Shown piece after piece: positions 28,106 through 50,577 of a stretch of 64,000 nt of DNA. This DNA is from Ethanoligenens harbinense YUAN-3 (GTDB lineage Bacteria; Bacillota; Clostridia; Oscillospirales; Ethanoligenentaceae), in contig NC_014828.1 of NCBI RefSeq assembly GCF_000178115.2, positions 2,617,501 to 2,681,500 on the forward strand, given 5' to 3'. Every line of letters starts with the position of its first letter. Positions within the stretch are counted from its first letter, which is position 1. The position numbers were made by a program, and so were the translations under genes. The notes under the pieces were generated by a model. It saw nothing but the letters and a program-made list of their open reading frames with translations, did no database searches and was not told the DNA's origin.

Positions 28106-29917
28106 ATGTTCAAGAAAATCAAAAAAATTGTGGTCGTATTGACAACAACTGTTCCTATCTTGGTTTCTTCATTTATTATGCCTAATGCAGCTTCCGCAGA
28201 ACAAACCCCATTGGGTGTAACACAGGTCGTCACAGGAATGAACACTGCATATGCGCTGAAATCCGACGGCTCTGTGTTGGCAACAGGTTATAACAGTTCC
28301 GGCGATTTGGGCGATGGAACAACAACCAATTCACTCGTGTGGAAGCAGGTGATCGCATCGGGTAGCGGGGTCACACAGCTCGCAACGGGAGAATGTACTG
28401 CATATGCGCTAAAATCCGATGGCTCTGTGTTGGCAACAGGTTATAACAGTTTCGGCGATTTGGGTGATGGAACAACAACCAACTCACTCGTGTGGAAGCA
28501 GGTGATTGCACCGGGTAGCGGGATCACACAGCTTGCAGCAGCGTGGGATACTGCATATGCACTAAAATCCGATGGCTCTGTGTTGGCAACAGGTGATGAC
28601 AGCCACGGCGAGCTGGGCGTCGGGTCATCCAGTTCACTCGTGTGGAAGCAGGTGATTGCACCGGGTAGCGGGATCACACAGCTCGCGGCGGGAAGCCACA
28701 GTGCATATGCGCTAAAATCCGACGGCTCTGTGTTGGCAACAGGCAACAACCAATATGGCCAGCTTGGCATCGGGACAACAAGCAATTCGCTGGTGTGGGA
28801 ACAGGTGATTGCACCGGGTAGCGGGGTCACACAGCTTACGGCAGGAAACCGCACTGCATATGCGCTAAAATCCGATGGCTCTGTGTTGGCAACAGGTGAT
28901 GACAGCTACGGCGAGCTGGGCGTCGGGTCATCCAGTTCACTCGTGTGGGAACAGGAGATTGCACCGGGTAGTGGGGTCATGCAGCTTGCGGCAGGAAACC
29001 TCAGTGCATATGCGCTAAAATCCGACGGCTCTGTGTTGGCAACAGGTTATAACAGTTCCGGAGGTTTGGGCGATGGAACAACAACCAACTCACTCGTGTG
29101 GAAGCAGGTGATTGCATCGGGTAGCGGGGTCACACAGCTCGCAACGGGGTTGTCATTCAGTGCATATGTGCTAAAATCCGGTGGCTCCGTGATGGCAACA
29201 GGCAACAACCAATATGGCCAGCTTGGCGTCGGGACAACAAGCAATTCGCTGGTGTGGGAACAGGTATTAATCATTGATTCCACGCCGCCGACTGGCAGCT
29301 ACAATCTCTCCACCACAGCATGGACTACCGGCAATGTAACGATCAACGTCACAGCAGCGGATTCACAGTCTGGGGTAAAATCCATTACAACACCGGACGG
29401 AACCACGGTGGCCGGCCCCACGTGCAGCTACAAGGTATCAGGCAACGGTACATATAATTTCGTTCTCACAGATAACGCCGGGAATACCTGCACCTATCCG
29501 GTAACGGTATCCAACATAGATCGGTCTGTGTCCGTATCCTACACCTCCAGCGTGGCCTATACGGTCGATCCAGATAACACCGGCAGCCCTACCTCGGGCG
29601 GGGACATTACGCTTACCAACAACAACACCCATGTAGGCGCGCAGGTTACATTGCAAAGTCTTACGTCCGCGCTCTCCGGTACCAATGGTTTCGTGCTCGG
29701 CGTGCAAGTGGAGGAATCGGCGTCCGGGAACACCGCATGGTCGGAGATCGACAACAAATCTGTGCAGTTGCCGGGCGGGGGCTCAACGGTGCTGGGCGTC
29801 CTGTCCCCGGGCGGTACCGGGCATATCAAGCTGGTCGGGCAGCTCAGCAGCCTGCGATGGCCCAGTGCCCAAGGGGATAACGGTAGCATGCAGCTGACGT
29901 TTACGGCGGTGTCGTAA
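28106..29917 (+). CDS. Secreted RCC1-repeat protein
   Basis: A 603-residue protein. The signal peptide ends near AASAEQ. Seven RCC1-like repeats of about 50 residues (AYALKSDGSVLATG...GDLGDGTTTNSLVWKQVIA.GSGVTQLA.G) would close into a seven-bladed propeller. An Ig-like block follows (DSTPPTGSYNLSTTAWTTGNVTINV), then a 120-residue domain related to the protein at 27403. The repeats are nearly identical in DNA, so copy number could change by recombination. RCC1-type propellers usually bind proteins. Confidence 0.8.
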   Translation: MFKKIKKIVVVLTTTVPILVSSFIMPNAASAEQTPLGVTQVVTGMNTAYALKSDGSVLATGYNSSGDLGDGTTTNSLVWKQVIASGSGVTQLATGECTAYALKSDGSVLATGYNSFGDLGDGTTTNSLVWKQVIAPGSGITQLAAAWDTAYALKSDGSVLATGDDSHGELGVGSSSSLVWKQVIAPGSGITQLAAGSHSAYALKSDGSVLATGNNQYGQLGIGTTSNSLVWEQVIAPGSGVTQLTAGNRTAYALKSDGSVLATGDDSYGELGVGSSSSLVWEQEIAPGSGVMQLAAGNLSAYALKSDGSVLATGYNSSGGLGDGTTTNSLVWKQVIASGSGVTQLATGLSFSAYVLKSGGSVMATGNNQYGQLGVGTTSNSLVWEQVLIIDSTPPTGSYNLSTTAWTTGNVTINVTAADSQSGVKSITTPDGTTVAGPTCSYKVSGNGTYNFVLTDNAGNTCTYPVTVSNIDRSVSVSYTSSVAYTVDPDNTGSPTSGGDITLTNNNTHVGAQVTLQSLTSALSGTNGFVLGVQVEESASGNTAWSEIDNKSVQLPGGGSTVLGVLSPGGTGHIKLVGQLSSLRWPSAQGDNGSMQLTFTAVS

Positions 29918-41750: not shown

Positions 41751-44700
41751 ATGAGTGATTCCCCCGGCGTTACAACCATGCATAAATTTGTTCAGGCCAA
41801 AAGCGTCGAAGGCAGATACAGCGGGTATGCTGTTGGCTATATGGATCGACCGGAAGCCTTTGAAGAAGATGAGCACCTTGACGACCCTTTGTATAAGAAT
41901 GTTGATGGTTACATGGGAAACCGAGAAAAAACAGACGGCCTGTTTGACGCAAACTTTGACTTACTGAACGATTACGACAAGAAAAACTATGGAGAAATGT
42001 TTGACGCTGCTCAGGATGTTGACTCCTGCATGTACCAGCCTATCATCTCTTTTGATAACGACTATCTCCTGGCTCACGGTATAGATTATCGCACGGAAGA
42101 CGGTCTCCACCTTTTAAAAGAAATGACCAGACTGGCAGTCTCTGATCTTATTGCCAACAGCCACCTTGACGAGCACAACGCCATCTGGACAGGCGCGATC
42201 CACACCAATACGGGTAATATCCACATCCATATCGCCATCGCGGAAATTGAAAAGACCAAATCCCCACGTGACGTGCTGCCTGAAAAGGCCATCGACAAAA
42301 TGAAATCCCGCGTGGCCAATGTGCTTATGGGGGATGAAAAAATCATCCGGCTCTCGGAGTATCTGCATAAGGAGCTGCCGCATGAGATCCGCACAGCCGC
42401 GCTGGAAGCCGGAAACGAGCTAACCGCCCTCGCCCGCCTACTCCCAGCAGATTGTGCATGGCAGTATAACCGTCCCAGCATGGCTCCATATCGGACAAAA
42501 ATCAACCACTGCGTCGATACCATTATCCGCAGCAATCCTGAACTGACCGCGAAATACACCGACGCAATGGGTTTGTTGGAAGAATACCGGCAAGACATAC
42601 AAGATGTTTATGGCGTCGGAAAACACGATCGCGCGCACGAGATGATGGACAACAAACTGGCAGACTTCTACGCCCGCGCCGGCAACGCTCTGCTTGCGGA
42701 AGCCAAAGAACTGAAACGCGATATGGCCCTTGAAGAAGGGCACAAAAACGGCCTGCCCGGCGGACCAGAAGGGGGAAAAAGGGAAACGGATGATTTACCG
42801 GCCTCAGCGCCGCCTCTTGTGGATGAGAATGTGGACTTTTTAGACCACGCCCGCCCCTCCCCGCCAGAGGGCAAAATCGGGCAGGCAGGCCAACCAGAAG
42901 GGGGAAAAAGAGAAATGTCGGATAATCCACCTTTACCGGATGAAATGGACATACCACCGGAATCTGATGGGACGCCAGACTTTGACTATGTTTCAAGACC
43001 ACCGGAAAAGATTCCCGATGAGATCGACCTGCTCATAACCCGTGCCGAGCACGGAGACGCCCGCGCACAATACGATCTTGGCATGCGCACCCTGCGGGGC
43101 CGCGGCATTGAAAAAGATCCTGCGCTTGCTTTTCGGATTATCAAGGACTCTGCCGACCGGGGAAACCCGGCCGCGCAATACAAACTGGCTCAGATGTATC
43201 GGGACGGCATAGGCGTGCCGGCTGATGTCGCGGGCGCTTCCTGGACGGATAAAAACAGCTTCCACGCGGATGAATATTTTCACGAGGCGTTTCAGGGCTT
43301 TTTGGAAAAAGCAGAGGCCGGGAACGCCTATGCAAACTATCGTGTGGCCACAATGTACGAAAAAGGCGATGGCGTTCCGCAGGATGCCCAGAAAGCCCAA
43401 AACTACCTGCGTGAAGCGGCATACCTTGGTCACACGCAATCCATGTACCTGCTCGGCAAACAGCTTATTACCTCATCCATCAAAGACTATGCAGAAGGTA
43501 TCCGTTATTTGGAATCAGCGGCGGATAAAGGGCACGTTAAAGCCGCTATTACGCTTGGCCAGTCTTATCTGCCCGCCGGTGACGATGCGACCGCTTTTGC
43601 ATATATGCAGCTTGCCGCCGGGCTTGGCGATCGCCAGGCAGCGTATATGCTCGGGAAAATGTACCGCGATGGCATCGGCACACCGGCCGACGCGAAAAAG
43701 GCGGCAGATTACCTCAAACAGGGTGCCAACATCTTTTGGACGGACGAATACAAGTCCGCACGGGCATACCTGTATGGATCAAAAGAGGTCGAACAGGATT
43801 TTGCCACTGCTCTCGATCTGCTCAAAGAAGAGGCAGCGAAAGGCAACGCGTTTGCCATGTGCGATGTCGGCCGAATTTATGAGCGGGGCCTCGGTATCGA
43901 TCCTGATCCGGAAATGGCCACCCGGTATTACTCCGAGGGCCTTGCTGCTCTGCTGGCGGTCGAGGAGATCGGACATGACGCCTACATACAGTATCGCATC
44001 GGTAAAATGTACCGTTTCGGGCAGGGCACAGAACCAAACGACGTGATTGCCGCCGAATTGTTTGAAAAATCAGCCGACCAGGGCAACCCGTTTGCACAGT
44101 ACTCTCTGGGCGGGATGTACTACCGTGGACAGGGTGTGGAGCAGGATTTTGTCAAGGCTTTTGAGCTTTACTGTGCCTCGGCTAAAAAAGACAATTCGTT
44201 CGCCGCATATGAACTCGGTAAAATGTATCATGACGGGATTGGAACGGCTCCGGACGCTGCCGAAAGTGAGCGCTGCTTCGAGCAGGCATTCGCCGGGTTT
44301 GTTGCCATTGAGAAAGCCAACCCGGACGATAAGATCCAATACCGGCTCGGGAAAATGCTGGAGACCGGCACCGGCACACCAAAGGACCTCGATGCTGCCG
44401 TCCAGTATTACGAAAAATCCGCGAAACTCAAAAATCCAAACGCGCAGTATGCACTTGCGCGGATCTATCTGACCAGCCAAGACGCTGTGAAGATAAAACA
44501 GGCGATTATGTGGCTGAAAAAATCCGCTGTCCAGCAAAACCCGTATGCAAGATATACCCTTGGCAAGCTGCTGGCGGACGGCAAGGTCATAAAGCAAAAC
44601 CATAAGGCCGCGCTGATCTGCTTTGAGTCAATTGCCGACAGCAACCCCTACGCCGCTTATACCGTAGCAAAGATGTACCGGGACGGCATCGGCACCGAAA

Positions 44701-45884
44701 AAAGCACGGAGCAGGCGGACAAATACTTCACCATGGCGTTTCAGAGCTTCACCGCGGCGGAAAATGAAACGCCAGATGCCAACCTGGAATACCGTTTGGC
44801 CACCATGCTCTTGACTGGTGAAGGCTGCGAAAGAAATCCCGAACAGGCAGTTGCCTATCTGAAAGCCGCCTGTGACAAAGAGCATCCATCCGCGCAGTAC
44901 ATGCTTGGGAAAATGTATCTGAATGGCGATGTCGTTGCAAAGGATGAAAAACAGGCGTTTAGGCTCATCAAAGCCGCCGCCGACAACGATCATCCCCACG
45001 CAGCCTACACCACAGGGCAACTGTACCGGGACGGCATTGGCACCCAAAAAGATGAGCAGGCCGCCCAGAGGTACTTCCAGAAGGCATTTGAGGCATACCA
45101 GAAGGGGGAAAAAGAACAACCTGACGAAAATCTGGAATATCGGCTCGGTATGATGCTGCTTGCCGGTGAGGGGTGCCCAAAAGATGTAAAAGCCTCGGTT
45201 GTCTATTTGGATACGGCTGCCGGCAAGGGGCACGAATACGCCCAATACGCGCTGGGCCGCCTGTACCTCACCGGCGAAGATCTTCCGAAAGACGTCGATA
45301 AGGCCGTGGGTTATCTGGATGCCTCCGCCGCAAAGGGGAACCAGTATGCACAATACGCCCTCGGCCGCCTGTATCTCACCGGCGAAGATCTTCCGAAAGA
45401 CGTCGACAAGGCTGCCGACTACCTGGATGCCTCCGCCGCACAAGGGAACCAGTTCGCGCAATACGCCCTCGGCCGCCTGTATCTCGATGGAAAGGAGGTG
45501 CCAAAGGACGTGCAGAAGGGACTTGGGTTTCTTGAGGCTTCCGCCGGGCAGAACAACCCATTCGCACAGTACGCTTTGGGCAGGCACGATCTGTCGGAAG
45601 GAAAACGAGGGCGGGCGCTTGAGTGGTTCCGAAAGTCTGCCGCCCAGGGTAATGAGTACGCAAAGAAAGCAATTGATTACATCAATCGACCGAAAAGCCG
45701 CCCCCATCCCCAATGGCAAGCCAGCATCATACCGGTGAAAGCCCTGTCTGCGGTGCGAAGGCTCACAAACGACTACAACCGTCGTGTCGCTCAGCTCAAG
45801 CGTGAATTTGACCGTGAAATGGAACTTGAAAGAGAACAGACACAATCTCTTGAACGGAGTCAGGAAAAAGGCAGGAGCCTGTAA
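41751..45884 (+). CDS. MobL/MOBP-type relaxase fused to a long Sel1-repeat array
   Basis: A 1377-residue protein. Residues 10-320 form the relaxase: GYVGYMDRP-like start, a conserved YQPIISF strand near 95-101, and the metal motif HTNTGNIHIH at 151-160. An acidic linker (320-420) follows. Residues 425 to about 1300 are some 23 Sel1/TPR-like repeats (AQY.LGKMY.DGIGT..D, 36 residues each, some in longer units), and the end is a coiled coil. The last repeats are nearly identical in DNA. The relaxase nicks oriT and pilots the strand; the array probably binds partners. Confidence 0.82.
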   Translation: MSDSPGVTTMHKFVQAKSVEGRYSGYAVGYMDRPEAFEEDEHLDDPLYKNVDGYMGNREKTDGLFDANFDLLNDYDKKNYGEMFDAAQDVDSCMYQPIISFDNDYLLAHGIDYRTEDGLHLLKEMTRLAVSDLIANSHLDEHNAIWTGAIHTNTGNIHIHIAIAEIEKTKSPRDVLPEKAIDKMKSRVANVLMGDEKIIRLSEYLHKELPHEIRTAALEAGNELTALARLLPADCAWQYNRPSMAPYRTKINHCVDTIIRSNPELTAKYTDAMGLLEEYRQDIQDVYGVGKHDRAHEMMDNKLADFYARAGNALLAEAKELKRDMALEEGHKNGLPGGPEGGKRETDDLPASAPPLVDENVDFLDHARPSPPEGKIGQAGQPEGGKREMSDNPPLPDEMDIPPESDGTPDFDYVSRPPEKIPDEIDLLITRAEHGDARAQYDLGMRTLRGRGIEKDPALAFRIIKDSADRGNPAAQYKLAQMYRDGIGVPADVAGASWTDKNSFHADEYFHEAFQGFLEKAEAGNAYANYRVATMYEKGDGVPQDAQKAQNYLREAAYLGHTQSMYLLGKQLITSSIKDYAEGIRYLESAADKGHVKAAITLGQSYLPAGDDATAFAYMQLAAGLGDRQAAYMLGKMYRDGIGTPADAKKAADYLKQGANIFWTDEYKSARAYLYGSKEVEQDFATALDLLKEEAAKGNAFAMCDVGRIYERGLGIDPDPEMATRYYSEGLAALLAVEEIGHDAYIQYRIGKMYRFGQGTEPNDVIAAELFEKSADQGNPFAQYSLGGMYYRGQGVEQDFVKAFELYCASAKKDNSFAAYELGKMYHDGIGTAPDAAESERCFEQAFAGFVAIEKANPDDKIQYRLGKMLETGTGTPKDLDAAVQYYEKSAKLKNPNAQYALARIYLTSQDAVKIKQAIMWLKKSAVQQNPYARYTLGKLLADGKVIKQNHKAALICFESIADSNPYAAYTVAKMYRDGIGTEKSTEQADKYFTMAFQSFTAAENETPDANLEYRLATMLLTGEGCERNPEQAVAYLKAACDKEHPSAQYMLGKMYLNGDVVAKDEKQAFRLIKAAADNDHPHAAYTTGQLYRDGIGTQKDEQAAQRYFQKAFEAYQKGEKEQPDENLEYRLGMMLLAGEGCPKDVKASVVYLDTAAGKGHEYAQYALGRLYLTGEDLPKDVDKAVGYLDASAAKGNQYAQYALGRLYLTGEDLPKDVDKAADYLDASAAQGNQFAQYALGRLYLDGKEVPKDVQKGLGFLEASAGQNNPFAQYALGRHDLSEGKRGRALEWFRKSAAQGNEYAKKAIDYINRPKSRPHPQWQASIIPVKALSAVRRLTNDYNRRVAQLKREFDREMELEREQTQSLERSQEKGRSL

Positions 45885-45907: not shown

Positions 45908-47836
45908 ATGAACCGAAAAAAACAGCTACACTATGTCTATAAGGACACCTTGAGGCGCGTCACGTCCTATCCTGACCGTTGGAAACGGTTTTTAAAGTAT
46001 TGCGATCAGGTCTACCCGATGTCGTTTGAAAACATGGTGCTGCTCTTTGGGCAGAACCCCAAAGCTACTCTCTTAGCCACTGAAGAACAATGGCGGGCAA
46101 TGGGACGGAATGTCCTTGATAACGCAAAAGAACTTTTTGCTTTTGATACAAACGGCGGTGAGATCCGCGCGGCAAAATTTTTTGATGTAAAGCAGACGGA
46201 CGGGGAACCGGTTCCCGAACGCTGGCGGCTGGATGAAGACACACAACGCAGCTATTTGAGTGCCATCAACCGGCATCGATCCGAGCCGGCCGACTCGGTT
46301 GAACGCTATCTTCGGGACATGATAGCTAATGATGTGCAGAATTACGGCTCCTTTGCCGAAGATTCGTTTCTCAAGGCGTTACGGGATCGCGGGTATGATC
46401 CCGGCAAAATAGCTGCTCTCCAGAAATCTTTTCGCCCCATGCTTGAACGCAATATCCGTTACCTGGTTGGAAACCGTTGTGACTTTCCCATGCACAGCCT
46501 TCCCGCTACCGGCAAATTTCGATATATCCGCGATTTTAACGATGTGTATTCCGCCACGCTGTTCGGCATCGTTTCAACCGACATGGCACGCGCGGTGCTG
46601 ACGCGGGTGGAACACTATGTACAACGGCTTGATGCAAAGGAGAATTTGATCTATGAAACTGAATTATACCAAGCAGGGACGTTTTCTCTCTCCAGAAATC
46701 CAGATCTCGAACGATCCGAGGGACGACCGTCCGCTGGGGGATCTCGGGAAGAAGATATTCAAGCGGCTGAAGCTGGAGAACAAGTGGAACTTTACGATTC
46801 TGTTGGTCGAAGGCGAGCTGATGGGCAAGATGCACCAGGCCGAGGAAACGGCCAATCGGAGGCTGCCGAAGTTGATCGAGGAGATGATGTCGAAAGAGCA
46901 GCTCCCGGAGGATTTGGAACTGCGGGAGCAGCGGATGCAGGAAATCCGGACTCAGGCGGAGGAGCAGATCATCCGGGAGATGGTGCAGAGCTTGAGCTGA
47001 TCGCGCTGGATGAAAGTTATTTGTTGAAATCAAATTTGGGTGAGGGGCCGTTGAAAGACGGCTCTATTTTTATGCCCGAAGCAGCATCGGCAAAGAAGCT
47101 CTCCACCGTTCTCCTTTGTCTCCCGGTGCAGCCACCGATTGAAAGGCAAATGGCCTTGAGCGCAGAAAGCCTGCGTGAAGCGGTCGGCGGCCCTTATATG
47201 GAAATCGAGTATAAAGCCGGTGTTTCCTGTATTTGCAAACCACCCAATTATGATGGTGGCGACGTATTTAATCGCGTGGTATCCGGAGAACTGACGGCAG
47301 GCCCCATCATCTTTGTTCATGCAAACGCGGATGGTTCATATTCGTCGCTGTCAAAAGAGGACTTAGATCATCTGAAACTGAAATTCGCGGCACCTTTGAT
47401 CGATGTCGGCCGTGAAATGGATAGATCCCATGCGCTTCTGGATGCGGTTCAGGCCAACGAAGGCGAAAAAGTATCCCAGATGCTTGCCGGGCATAAGGAT
47501 GACGCCAACAAACTGATTGACGGTGCCACACCGCTGCATTACGCCGTTGAGCATGGCGCCGATAAAAGCGCTGCGGTGCTTTTGAAGCGTGGTGCGTATG
47601 TAGACGCCATCAATGAGGAGCGCAAGACTCCGCTTTTTCGGGCGGTGGAACGCGGGGATGCAAAGATGACGAGGCAGCTGCTCAAAGCCGGCGCTGACCC
47701 GGAACTCAGCGACGGCAAGCGCTTTATACAGGATATTGTCGCATCCAAAGCGATCAAGTCCATGCTGGATGAGTACACGACGATAAAACAACTCAAGACG
47801 GGGCGTTTGCCTTCCGGCCCGAGGAGGAAGATGTAG
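45908..47836 (+). CDS. ArdC-N-like protein with DUF3846-like and ankyrin domains
   Basis: A 642-residue protein. Residues 1-100 (YKDTLRRVTSYPDRWKRFLKYCDQVYPMSFENMVLLFGQNP) match the ssDNA-binding start of large ArdC/LtrC-like element proteins. Residues 255-370 are low-complexity Gly/Ala/Asp/Glu, and here another gene (46653-47000) is encoded in a different frame. Residues 370-500 resemble DUF3846, and 515-610 are about three ankyrin repeats (ATPLHYAVEHGADKSAAVLLKRGA). It sits between relaxase and coupling protein and may protect DNA in the recipient. Confidence 0.65.
   Translation: MNRKKQLHYVYKDTLRRVTSYPDRWKRFLKYCDQVYPMSFENMVLLFGQNPKATLLATEEQWRAMGRNVLDNAKELFAFDTNGGEIRAAKFFDVKQTDGEPVPERWRLDEDTQRSYLSAINRHRSEPADSVERYLRDMIANDVQNYGSFAEDSFLKALRDRGYDPGKIAALQKSFRPMLERNIRYLVGNRCDFPMHSLPATGKFRYIRDFNDVYSATLFGIVSTDMARAVLTRVEHYVQRLDAKENLIYETELYQAGTFSLSRNPDLERSEGRPSAGGSREEDIQAAEAGEQVELYDSVGRRRADGQDAPGRGNGQSEAAEVDRGDDVERAAPGGFGTAGAADAGNPDSGGGADHPGDGAELELIALDESYLLKSNLGEGPLKDGSIFMPEAASAKKLSTVLLCLPVQPPIERQMALSAESLREAVGGPYMEIEYKAGVSCICKPPNYDGGDVFNRVVSGELTAGPIIFVHANADGSYSSLSKEDLDHLKLKFAAPLIDVGREMDRSHALLDAVQANEGEKVSQMLAGHKDDANKLIDGATPLHYAVEHGADKSAAVLLKRGAYVDAINEERKTPLFRAVERGDAKMTRQLLKAGADPELSDGKRFIQDIVASKAIKSMLDEYTTIKQLKTGRLPSGPRRKM
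46204..46215. promoter_or_regulatory. GGAACCGGTTCC palindrome in coding sequence
   Basis: Perfect site, again read as Glu-Pro-Val-Pro, far from the parAB cluster. Confidence 0.6.
46653..47000 (+). CDS. TnpV-like protein encoded inside another gene
   Basis: A 115-residue protein read in another frame of the ArdC-like gene. ATG 46653 has a textbook AAAGGAG nine bases upstream. The sequence (MKLNYTKQGRFLSPEI...PLGDLGKKIFKRLK...LLVEGELMGKMHQAEETANRRL) follows TnpV of Firmicute mobile elements across its length, including the helical C-terminus. The host frame is low-complexity over the same bases, which indicates that the TnpV frame is the constrained one. Confidence 0.75.
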   Translation: MKLNYTKQGRFLSPEIQISNDPRDDRPLGDLGKKIFKRLKLENKWNFTILLVEGELMGKMHQAEETANRRLPKLIEEMMSKEQLPEDLELREQRMQEIRTQAEEQIIREMVQSLS

Positions 47837-47837
47837 T

Positions 47838-49976
47838 ATGAAGGCAAAACAGAGGTTCATCTATATCTTAATCGTGTTGGGAGTTCTGGCTGGAATGACC
47901 AGCCTTGCTACGATGTTGATCAACGTTGCCTTGCATTATTTATTTATTTTATTGCATTCACTGCCGTCCATTGTCAGATCCATCCGAACAAATACGTTTC
48001 ATCCAAACCTGAGTTTTCGATCCGGCTATCTTTTCACTACGGTTTCCCCTTTAAAATGGTACTACCCATGGCTGTTTGCCTTGATTCTGATGATGTTGCG
48101 TGGCAGGCAAACCGTACTCAAAATAAGCCACCGGGTTTTTCGGTCACTACCTGTTACAAAGCCAGACTTTGAGGGCAGCAGCCGGTGGCAAACGAAAAAG
48201 GAAATCCGACAGAACGAACAGTTGGTGGCCATCCCCCATAGCAATATCCGATCGGTCAAGGATGCGGGAATACCAATCGCGAGGGATTTACTTTACACGT
48301 ATGCATGTAAAGCGGTCGTTCACTCCTTGATTGTCGGTATCACACGCAGCGGTAAAGGTCAGTTGATGGTGCAGAACACGATTCGTTTTATCAGCCAGTG
48401 CAAAAACCCAGAATCGTTTATTGTCTTTGATCTCCGCGGCGATAATGCCCAGTCGAATTATCGGACGCTGAAAAAAACACATAAAATTCATATCATCAAT
48501 TTGGACAATCCCAAAAAGAGCGCCGGATGGGACCTGCTTTCCACGATTCGTAAAGCATTTTTGCAGGAAATAAAAGAAGGAGATTTTGATAAGACCATTC
48601 AGCTGACTACTACCCTTGCTCATGCGTTTACGGAAGACAGTACATCCGAGGCTGTTTGGCCTGAGTCCTGCAAACAGCTCTTGACCGCTATGATTTTGTA
48701 TCTGTTGGACGATGGCTATAAACGCGGTTGTCTTGACAAGGTGAATATGTACAGCGTCACGGAATTTTTCATCAAGTACGCTGGGCAGGAAATAAAGATT
48801 GGGCGGACAACGACCAATGCACTGGATACGTTGTTCTCCGAGCTTCCGGATGGTCATCTAGCAAAAAACTTTTATGCAACCAGCAAATTTGCGCAAGGTG
48901 ATATGCGTTCGTCCATTTTTGCAATACTATCCGCGAACCTGTCCATGTTTAACGATTCGGGTATTATTCGCCTTACCAGCAATGATGACGTAGACTTTGC
49001 AGACCTGGCAAATCCGGATAAGCCATGCGCCATTTTTATTATCGTACCAGAAGGGCGCGAGGAACGTAATAAACTGGTGTCCCTGCTGGTGGATCAATGC
49101 TACGCAGAACTACTTGATATAGCAAGAGCACGCCCGGATGGCCAGCTGCCGAGACGGGTGCGGATCATTGCCGATGAAATCTGCAACTATCCTAAAATCA
49201 CCGCACTGTCCAACAAAATCACAACTTCGCTGGCGCGCGGCATCATTTTAGACATGTATATTCACTCTCTGCCGCAATTTGAGGATAAATACGGCAAAAA
49301 CACCGCCCAAACTATTTTAAGCAACGGCGGCAATCTTGTTTATATCTATTCGCAAGACAAAGCAACTAATCAATATGTTTCGGATTTGCTCGATACCTCG
49401 ACCGAGGAGTATCGTACATACAACTCGGAGAATGGCGCTATTTTGGATAACAACAGAATGAGCCATTATAAGGGCAGACCGCTAAAAACGCCCGGTGAGC
49501 TGCGTCGGTTAAAATTTTGGGAAATCGTTGTAATTCAACAACGCAACTACCCTATTCATTCGCATCTTGTGCCATTTTTTCAACTGCACATACCTGTGGC
49601 AGCGTACGAGGAGCTGCCAATCCCAATACACAATGAGAAAAAAGAAGAACACCTCTTCCCCGTCTCATCCATAATGAATACCAAGCGGGATACCAGCGAA
49701 GACGCTGCACCCTTGCCCGGAGACAATGATGCGCCGCCAGCCGCAGCCGATACCCATGGCGACCATAAGGTAATCACTATGGATACCAAGCTTCAGGGTG
49801 TTCTAAACAACATCGATATCCTGACGCACGGGAAATTTCGGCATGCCGCCGAGAAGCGCAACAAAAACGCACTATATACTATGATTACCAAATACCAAGA
49901 GGCCGGCCAGCTGAACATGGAACAGGCCGAGCTGTTGGAAAGCTATGTTGATGATCTGTCTGATACAAAGGAGTAA
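47838..49976 (+). CDS. virD4: VirD4/TraG-type coupling protein
   Basis: A 712-residue protein starting at ATG 47838, one base after the previous stop. Membrane helices lie at residues 6-26, 30-45 and 74-90. Walker A (VGITRSGKGQL) is near residue 167, Walker B (RIIADEICNYP) near 443-453, and the TraG-type segment LSNGGNLVYIYSQDKAT follows. It links the relaxosome to the VirB channel. The C-terminal 120 residues are acidic and variable, as expected for a substrate-binding tail. Confidence 0.92.
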   Translation: MKAKQRFIYILIVLGVLAGMTSLATMLINVALHYLFILLHSLPSIVRSIRTNTFHPNLSFRSGYLFTTVSPLKWYYPWLFALILMMLRGRQTVLKISHRVFRSLPVTKPDFEGSSRWQTKKEIRQNEQLVAIPHSNIRSVKDAGIPIARDLLYTYACKAVVHSLIVGITRSGKGQLMVQNTIRFISQCKNPESFIVFDLRGDNAQSNYRTLKKTHKIHIINLDNPKKSAGWDLLSTIRKAFLQEIKEGDFDKTIQLTTTLAHAFTEDSTSEAVWPESCKQLLTAMILYLLDDGYKRGCLDKVNMYSVTEFFIKYAGQEIKIGRTTTNALDTLFSELPDGHLAKNFYATSKFAQGDMRSSIFAILSANLSMFNDSGIIRLTSNDDVDFADLANPDKPCAIFIIVPEGREERNKLVSLLVDQCYAELLDIARARPDGQLPRRVRIIADEICNYPKITALSNKITTSLARGIILDMYIHSLPQFEDKYGKNTAQTILSNGGNLVYIYSQDKATNQYVSDLLDTSTEEYRTYNSENGAILDNNRMSHYKGRPLKTPGELRRLKFWEIVVIQQRNYPIHSHLVPFFQLHIPVAAYEELPIPIHNEKKEEHLFPVSSIMNTKRDTSEDAAPLPGDNDAPPAAADTHGDHKVITMDTKLQGVLNNIDILTHGKFRHAAEKRNKNALYTMITKYQEAGQLNMEQAELLESYVDDLSDTKE

Positions 49977-49983
49977 GAATGCT

Positions 49984-50577
49984 ATGAAAAAGACAATCGC
50001 CCTATTGGCTGCTGTAACGCTGTCTGTTGGCCTGCTGGCCGGGTGCGACTCTGTACCAAACGCCATTGCGTCCGTTTCGTCCACGCCCGCTTCTGTGGCC
50101 TCTCCCGGGGGAAGTGATATTTCCGTTTACTTTCCACGCGCCGGGCAGGACGCCGAAGGGCAGTTGATTTCCCGTCTGTCCGCCGCGCAGAAGACTTTGG
50201 ATGTGGCTATTTACGAGTTCACAGATACCAAGATTGCGGATGCCATCGCCGCCGCAAAAAAGCGCGGCGTGACCGTGCGCCTGATCTCCGACCGGGAATG
50301 CTCCGGCGAAGCGGCACAAAAAAAGGCGCTTAACATCGTGAAGGCTGCCGGCATCCCGATCAGGATCAACAGCCACCCAGGTATCATGCACCTGAAGGTA
50401 TCCATCATCGACGACAGCGTGACGACGACCGGCAGCTTCAACTATACCAAAGGCGCCCAGAACGAGAATGACGAGAACCTGGTCGTCCTGAACAACTCGC
50501 AGATTTCGCAGCAGTACGAGACGCAGTTCAACCGAATGTGGAACGACACAAAGGATTTTACAAACTGGAACAGTTGA
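49984..50577 (+). CDS. Secreted PLD-family nuclease lipoprotein
   Basis: A 197-residue protein starting at ATG 49984. A lipoprotein signal (SVGLLAGC, Cys about 21) precedes a phospholipase-D-like nuclease domain. Its single HKD-type motif (IMHLKVSIIDDSVTTTGSFN) is near residue 136, with DVAIYEFTD and GVTVRLISD upstream. Single-motif PLD nucleases such as Nuc of pKM101 dimerise and cut nucleic acids. The role on this element is unknown. Confidence 0.82.
   Translation: MKKTIALLAAVTLSVGLLAGCDSVPNAIASVSSTPASVASPGGSDISVYFPRAGQDAEGQLISRLSAAQKTLDVAIYEFTDTKIADAIAAAKKRGVTVRLISDRECSGEAAQKKALNIVKAAGIPIRINSHPGIMHLKVSIIDDSVTTTGSFNYTKGAQNENDENLVVLNNSQISQQYETQFNRMWNDTKDFTNWNS

Follow-up and report, generated by a model that had tools for sequence, protein, structure and literature searches.

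In Ethanoligenens harbinense YUAN-3, a gene for a TnpV protein lies wholly inside a larger gene on the same strand and is read in the +1 frame relative to it. The shared segment probably codes in two frames as an old, maintained feature of conjugative elements; from comparison of the window with its relatives, we put the probability of this reading at about 0.83. The window is the whole stretch of DNA analysed, 64,000 nucleotides of contig NC_014828.1 (positions 2,617,501 to 2,681,500). The components of the locus are ordinary, and on the sequence evidence their dual-coding arrangement is unusual, old and well supported. Long same-strand nested genes are thought to be rare in bacteria and are difficult to prove.

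For TnpV of Tn4451, a role in excision is only postulated in the available text of PMC3158075. The snf2 genes of ICEs are insertion sites for TnpV-carrying elements of S. suis (PMC9815147, available text). A protective role toward transferred DNA has been proposed for polyvalent proteins that join a methylase to SNF2 (Iyer et al., 2017; PMC5512222, main text), and a term search of that main text returned neither TnpV nor "overlapping". A description of the overlap between TnpV and the outer gene was not found in the literature searched, whose coverage takes in few subscription papers or preprints.

Results

The two frames in the window

Both open frames that the first-pass annotation had placed over the shared segment were read in the sequence (Table 1). 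The claim of a full-length family match for the inner frame was borne out as well, since PF14198 aligned over profile positions 1-111 of 111 with 82.9 bits against a cut-off of 27, and the protein belongs to the family. The ribosome binding site, described earlier as ideal, is good (AAAGGAG), but its spacer to the ATG is 10 nt, slightly above the 8 nt typical of relatives. Because the TnpV frame carries a TGA shortly upstream of the ATG, TnpV needs a start of its own.

Table 1. Features of the nested locus and its flanking genes (window positions).
Feature	Position	Strand	Basis
Upstream gene: MobL relaxase fused to Sel1 repeats	41751..45884	+	Pfam
Outer gene, 642 aa/codons: N-terminal domain, linker (the TnpV overlap), DUF3846-like stretch, ankyrin repeats	45908..47836	+	ORF, Pfam, relatives, AF2
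N-terminal domain, also in giant methylase-helicase proteins of conjugative elements; 20-26% identity to 21 aligned relatives	45908..46652	+	
TnpV Shine-Dalgarno AAAGGAG, within the outer coding sequence	46636..46642	+	Read from letters; kept in relatives
TGA of the TnpV frame, shortly 5' of the ATG	46647..46649	+	Read from letters; open stretch of 116 codons
TnpV, 115 aa (ATG 46653, stop TGA 46998-47000), frame +1 versus outer gene; outer reading here a predicted disordered linker	46653..47000	+	PF14198, 82.9 bits; AF2
DUF3846-like stretch, outer residues 401-493, sub-threshold	47108..47386	+	Pfam; 64 bits at the corresponding place in giant L186
Ankyrin repeats, outer residues 511-602, where relatives have the methylase-helicase part	47438..47713	+	Pfam
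Downstream gene: VirD4-type coupling protein	47838..49976	+	Pfam

The outer frame stays open across the overlap and is rich in Gly, Ala, Asp and Glu there, as first described. The ankyrin part of the outer gene is real by Pfam. The label "ArdC-like" was not upheld: a Pfam search at E up to 1 returned no ArdC family, and it gave no credible name for the N-terminal domain. DUF3846 scored 19.9 bits in the outer protein, below its cut-off of 27.5. Among the giant relatives, L310 and L311 carry an N6-methylase and an SNF2 helicase in one polypeptide, and L186 has the TnpV linker followed by DUF3846 and then by methylase and SNF2. Neither enzyme domain was found by Pfam in the window protein, which thus falls outside the polyvalent methylase-SNF2 proteins; it may be an L186-type protein in which ankyrin repeats replace the enzymes. 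Two other short forms, L018 (462 aa) and L023 (841 aa), gave no Pfam match.

AF2 predicted TnpV of the window as a hairpin with long helices (mean pLDDT 90.7). In the outer protein the N-terminal domain was predicted to be helical and residues 256-417 to be coil with pLDDT below 50; aligned relatives stop near residue 364, and low confidence beyond it may reflect the thin alignment. TnpV is predicted to fold, and the outer linker encoded by the same DNA to be disordered. The two predictions are compatible, because a helix rich in Leu, Glu, Lys and Arg, read one base off, must give codons for Ala, Gly, Pro, Arg, Glu and Asp under the genetic code. Against the PDB, the TnpV fold search found no match at E 0.001, the best VIA-align hit (Z 5.6) was a generic one to a helical part, and the best sequence hit (E 0.24) was no convincing relative.

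Besides the flanking relaxase and coupling protein genes, genes for a DUF3991-Toprim protein, an AAA_10 ATPase and a lysozyme lie further upstream, and this company makes the locus part of a conjugative element. The MobL relaxase carries a long fused Sel1 array (19 stretches, 392 bits) and looks unusual as a relaxase architecture. A PLD-like protein (PF13091) is encoded at 49945-50577, and the first 32 bases of its gene lie within the 3'-terminal part of the VirD4 gene. Near the conjugation region, 28106-29917 encodes a protein with strong RCC1 repeats (215 bits).

Openness of the frames in the window copy

The third frame has six stops within the window overlap. When the TnpV codons were shuffled synonymously 20000 times, the outer frame was left open in 0.5% of the shuffles. 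T was found at the third position before AA, AG or GA in 0/26 cases in the overlap versus 13/40 elsewhere (Fisher p 0.0009). The converse test is weaker: shuffling the outer codons left the TnpV frame open in 66%, so the case for TnpV rests on its family match and not on openness. Over the window and its relatives together, both frames are open across the overlap beyond chance. The window copy had no close relative among the homologues, the nearest found being at an N-domain distance of 0.74; selection on this copy is suggested by its relatives and its own codon choice.

Distribution of the nest

The outer protein had matches in 32 of 197 genomes searched (its own included), mostly via the N-terminal part, with matched open frames reaching about 3200 codons. 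An N-domain profile built from nested members only (A2) was found in 95 of 394 genomes from the order and in 31 of 398 from the phylum; PF14198 was present in 231/394 and 20/299 genomes. The viral contigs searched held no relative of the outer gene. After removal of 42 entries with duplicate DNA, 37 with weak or incomplete N-domain matches and 7 too near an end, 183 distinct N-domain homologues were available for the comparison of outer genes with and without the segment that the first-pass annotation had proposed. In 179 of them TnpV occupies the same position, is read in the +1 frame as here and is fully spanned by the outer frame. In three others (L210, L272 and L169) TnpV is present and the outer frame ends before the TnpV end, and only L027, whose frame has 332 codons and ends differently at the C-terminus, lacks TnpV. 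Proteins matching only about the first 100 residues of the N-domain had no TnpV; the one exception is the divergent L116, which carries a weak TnpV, again in the +1 frame. The YUAN-3 genome itself holds a second, canonical nest (G000:C1:2039482). Where named, the hosts are nearly all Bacillota, among them Oscillospiraceae, Lachnospiraceae, Erysipelotrichaceae and Christensenellaceae. Two nests (L237 and L239) lie on MAG contigs labelled Alphaproteobacteria SZUA-601, perhaps through transfer or mis-binning.

Among 270 distinct full-length TnpV copies (58 duplicates and 23 partial copies left out), 84 stand alone. In the first stand-alone copies (L033-L062) another frame spanned TnpV in 0/30. 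Three copies (L346, L358 and L360) have no detected N-domain and an outer-equivalent frame spanning TnpV; they may be recent escapes or chance cases. A large serine recombinase lies directly upstream of stand-alone TnpV in 16 of the 84 loci by neighbour clustering and in 9 by a single tblastn query, and is so annotated on a Campylobacter plasmid. In 9 of the 84 stand-alone loci a gene that we take to be Mob-like is a neighbour.

Selection on both frames

The first-pass annotation had named stop codons in one frame of homologues as evidence against dual coding. The outer frame had 0 stops across 181 nested copies, against an average of 12.9 in the third frame. T before AA, AG or GA occurred at 0/4047 sites in 176 nested copies versus 252/1017 in 42 stand-alone copies, a control set made up largely of the highest-scoring Pfam hits; elsewhere in the nested copies it occurred at 1843/9003. 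A Shine-Dalgarno match of 5 nt or more preceded 174 of 178 nested TnpV starts versus 3.3% of 9673 same-frame control ATGs, and mostly read "ERS" in the outer frame (117).

The substitution patterns, which had been proposed as a further check, were measured in both frames. Over 35 pairs, outer third codon positions were fastest in the N-domain (0.127) and slowest in the overlap (0.039), and outer first positions, the third positions of TnpV, were fastest in the overlap (0.095). By site-class counts from 52 pairs of high identity, dN/dS was 0.28 for TnpV (95% 0.23-0.33), 0.99 for the outer frame in the overlap (0.85-1.16) and 0.12 for the N-domain; the pairs used for codon rates and for dN/dS share sequences, and the intervals are rough. 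At 80-90% identity the values were 0.35, 1.21 and 0.21, respectively. Changes synonymous in TnpV and nonsynonymous in the outer frame had a rate 0.76 times that of synonymous changes in the N-domain. TnpV is thus under purifying selection in the relatives, and the outer frame avoids stops while its residues are themselves near neutral. It follows that the linker must stay open and its letters matter little, and that the letters of TnpV do matter.

History of the nest

Distances among N-domains agreed with those among nested TnpVs (Mantel r 0.73, n 46; 0/2000 permutations as high). Together with the 179 nests in 183 homologues, this agreement indicates that the nest was inherited with the outer gene. 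In a tree of 119 representatives (of 218), the nested state needed six changes, at least four of them forced by well-supported branches. A second tree was built from 92 representatives of 270, reduced to 90 by removing two broken nests; it again needed six changes, at least two of them forced, and a single stand-alone clade was rejected (AU p 0.007) for a group picked after the earlier tree had been seen. Four stand-alone copies (L287, L302, L345 and L315) are nearer to a nested copy than to any stand-alone one. Since repeated nesting at one place and in one frame is unlikely, we infer one nesting with several escapes as the simplest history. On these trees, whose root is not fixed, TnpV probably left its nests repeatedly. 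The first event may have been capture, which would then be ancient, readthrough or de novo birth.

Three further signals were sought. Closeness of stand-alone copies to nested ones did not go with a lower number of stops in the former outer frame (Spearman -0.05, p 0.64, n 87; after GC3, 0.04, p 0.70), which gives escape no support. Beside stand-alone copies, a search for outer-gene remnants matched only L361, to a downstream part, apart from L210, which is a nested copy with an apparently shifted outer frame. Codon usage in the overlap was a slightly better fit to the TnpV frame than to the outer one (28/46); if anything, this weakly favours TnpV as the older frame, and the signal is weak because TnpV dominates selection in the overlap.

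Discussion

In the favoured reading, a single mRNA would be translated in two frames. Ribosomes that initiate at 45908 would make the outer protein, in which the overlap would serve as a long disordered spacer after the N-terminal domain, linking it to DUF3846 and ankyrin repeats here and to methylase and SNF2 helicase in the giant relatives. Other ribosomes would use the internal Shine-Dalgarno sequence and the ATG at 46653 to produce the small helical protein TnpV, which is predicted to fold. Both proteins would be made, and the spacer would need only to stay open and flexible. TnpV may be an accessory recombination or transfer factor, serving excision or transfer of the element.

If only TnpV were made, with the outer frame open through base composition and the N-domain and C-terminal part as separate proteins, the dN/dS of about 1 in the outer overlap would fit, and one RefSeq record does list TnpV with a downstream SNF2 gene starting about 1.9 kb later. 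Base composition does not account for the missing T before AA, AG or GA in nested copies (0/4047, versus 252/1017 in stand-alone ones), for outer stops in 0/181 copies when the third frame has 12.9 each, or for the 0.5% of window shuffles left open, and we regard this explanation as improbable. The opposite case, in which only the outer protein is made and TnpV is the relic of an inserted gene, draws on the 66% of outer-codon shuffles that leave its frame open. A relic would hardly combine a dN/dS of 0.28, a kept Shine-Dalgarno sequence and ATG, fast third positions in its own frame and a confidently predicted fold, which makes this case very improbable.

The first-pass annotation saw a tnpV gene captured inside this larger gene, its second frame having become a linker. 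Dual coding and the linker role hold up; a recent, local capture does not. Stand-alone TnpVs are common (84/270) and occur in transposon-like elements, in favour of a local capture, but the same nest in 179/183 homologues and its co-inheritance with the outer gene render such an event exceedingly improbable. Just as improbable is programmed frameshifting from the outer frame into an N-domain-TnpV fusion: the shared mRNA and the +1 frame would suit it, but in the window the TnpV frame has a TGA only one codon ahead of the ATG, and relatives keep the strong Shine-Dalgarno sequence.

Like tnpV of the Tn4451 type, the window TnpV matches PF14198 over its full length. Known TnpV members are described as separate genes, whereas this one is nested in the +1 frame of a larger gene. 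Relatives of the window protein fit the polyvalent methylase-SNF2 dyad proteins as the main text of PMC5512222 presents them (giants with N6-methylase and SNF2, in conjugative elements), but the window protein lacks both enzymes. Overprinted bacterial genes, such as those of E. coli, are likewise embedded in the frame of another gene, and the available text of PMC4683798 and PMC7103648 describes them as recent, orphan or antisense; unlike those cases, the present nest is on the same strand, occurs in many families of Bacillota and has an embedded frame that belongs to a named protein family.

The overlap also bears on annotation. In NZ_OY725736.1 (L311, 8160-15836) the outer frame runs open for 2559 codons, and the table gives TnpV and a 5'-shortened SNF2 gene beginning about 3.1 kb into it. 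Most of the upstream part of that open frame has no annotation in the table. In NZ_CP051681.1 the annotation places a hypothetical gene of the opposite strand across the N-domain part of the open outer frame; these plasmid annotation tables are incomplete, and other features may exist. Because the outer gene is missing or shortened in a RefSeq record where the overlap lies, N-termini of such proteins may be misannotated.

Since the copies are many and diverged, one frame belongs to a named family and the stand-alone copies provide a clean control, selection can be measured here on both frames. A more far-reaching history, which we consider doubtful though worth stating, is that the TnpV family was born by overprinting in the linker of a polyvalent gene of a conjugative element, and that several later escapes turned it into stand-alone genes of transposons and mobilizable elements. 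If the escapes are real, TnpV would offer a way to test how a new gene is born by overprinting and then released, with the second frame of another gene as its nursery.
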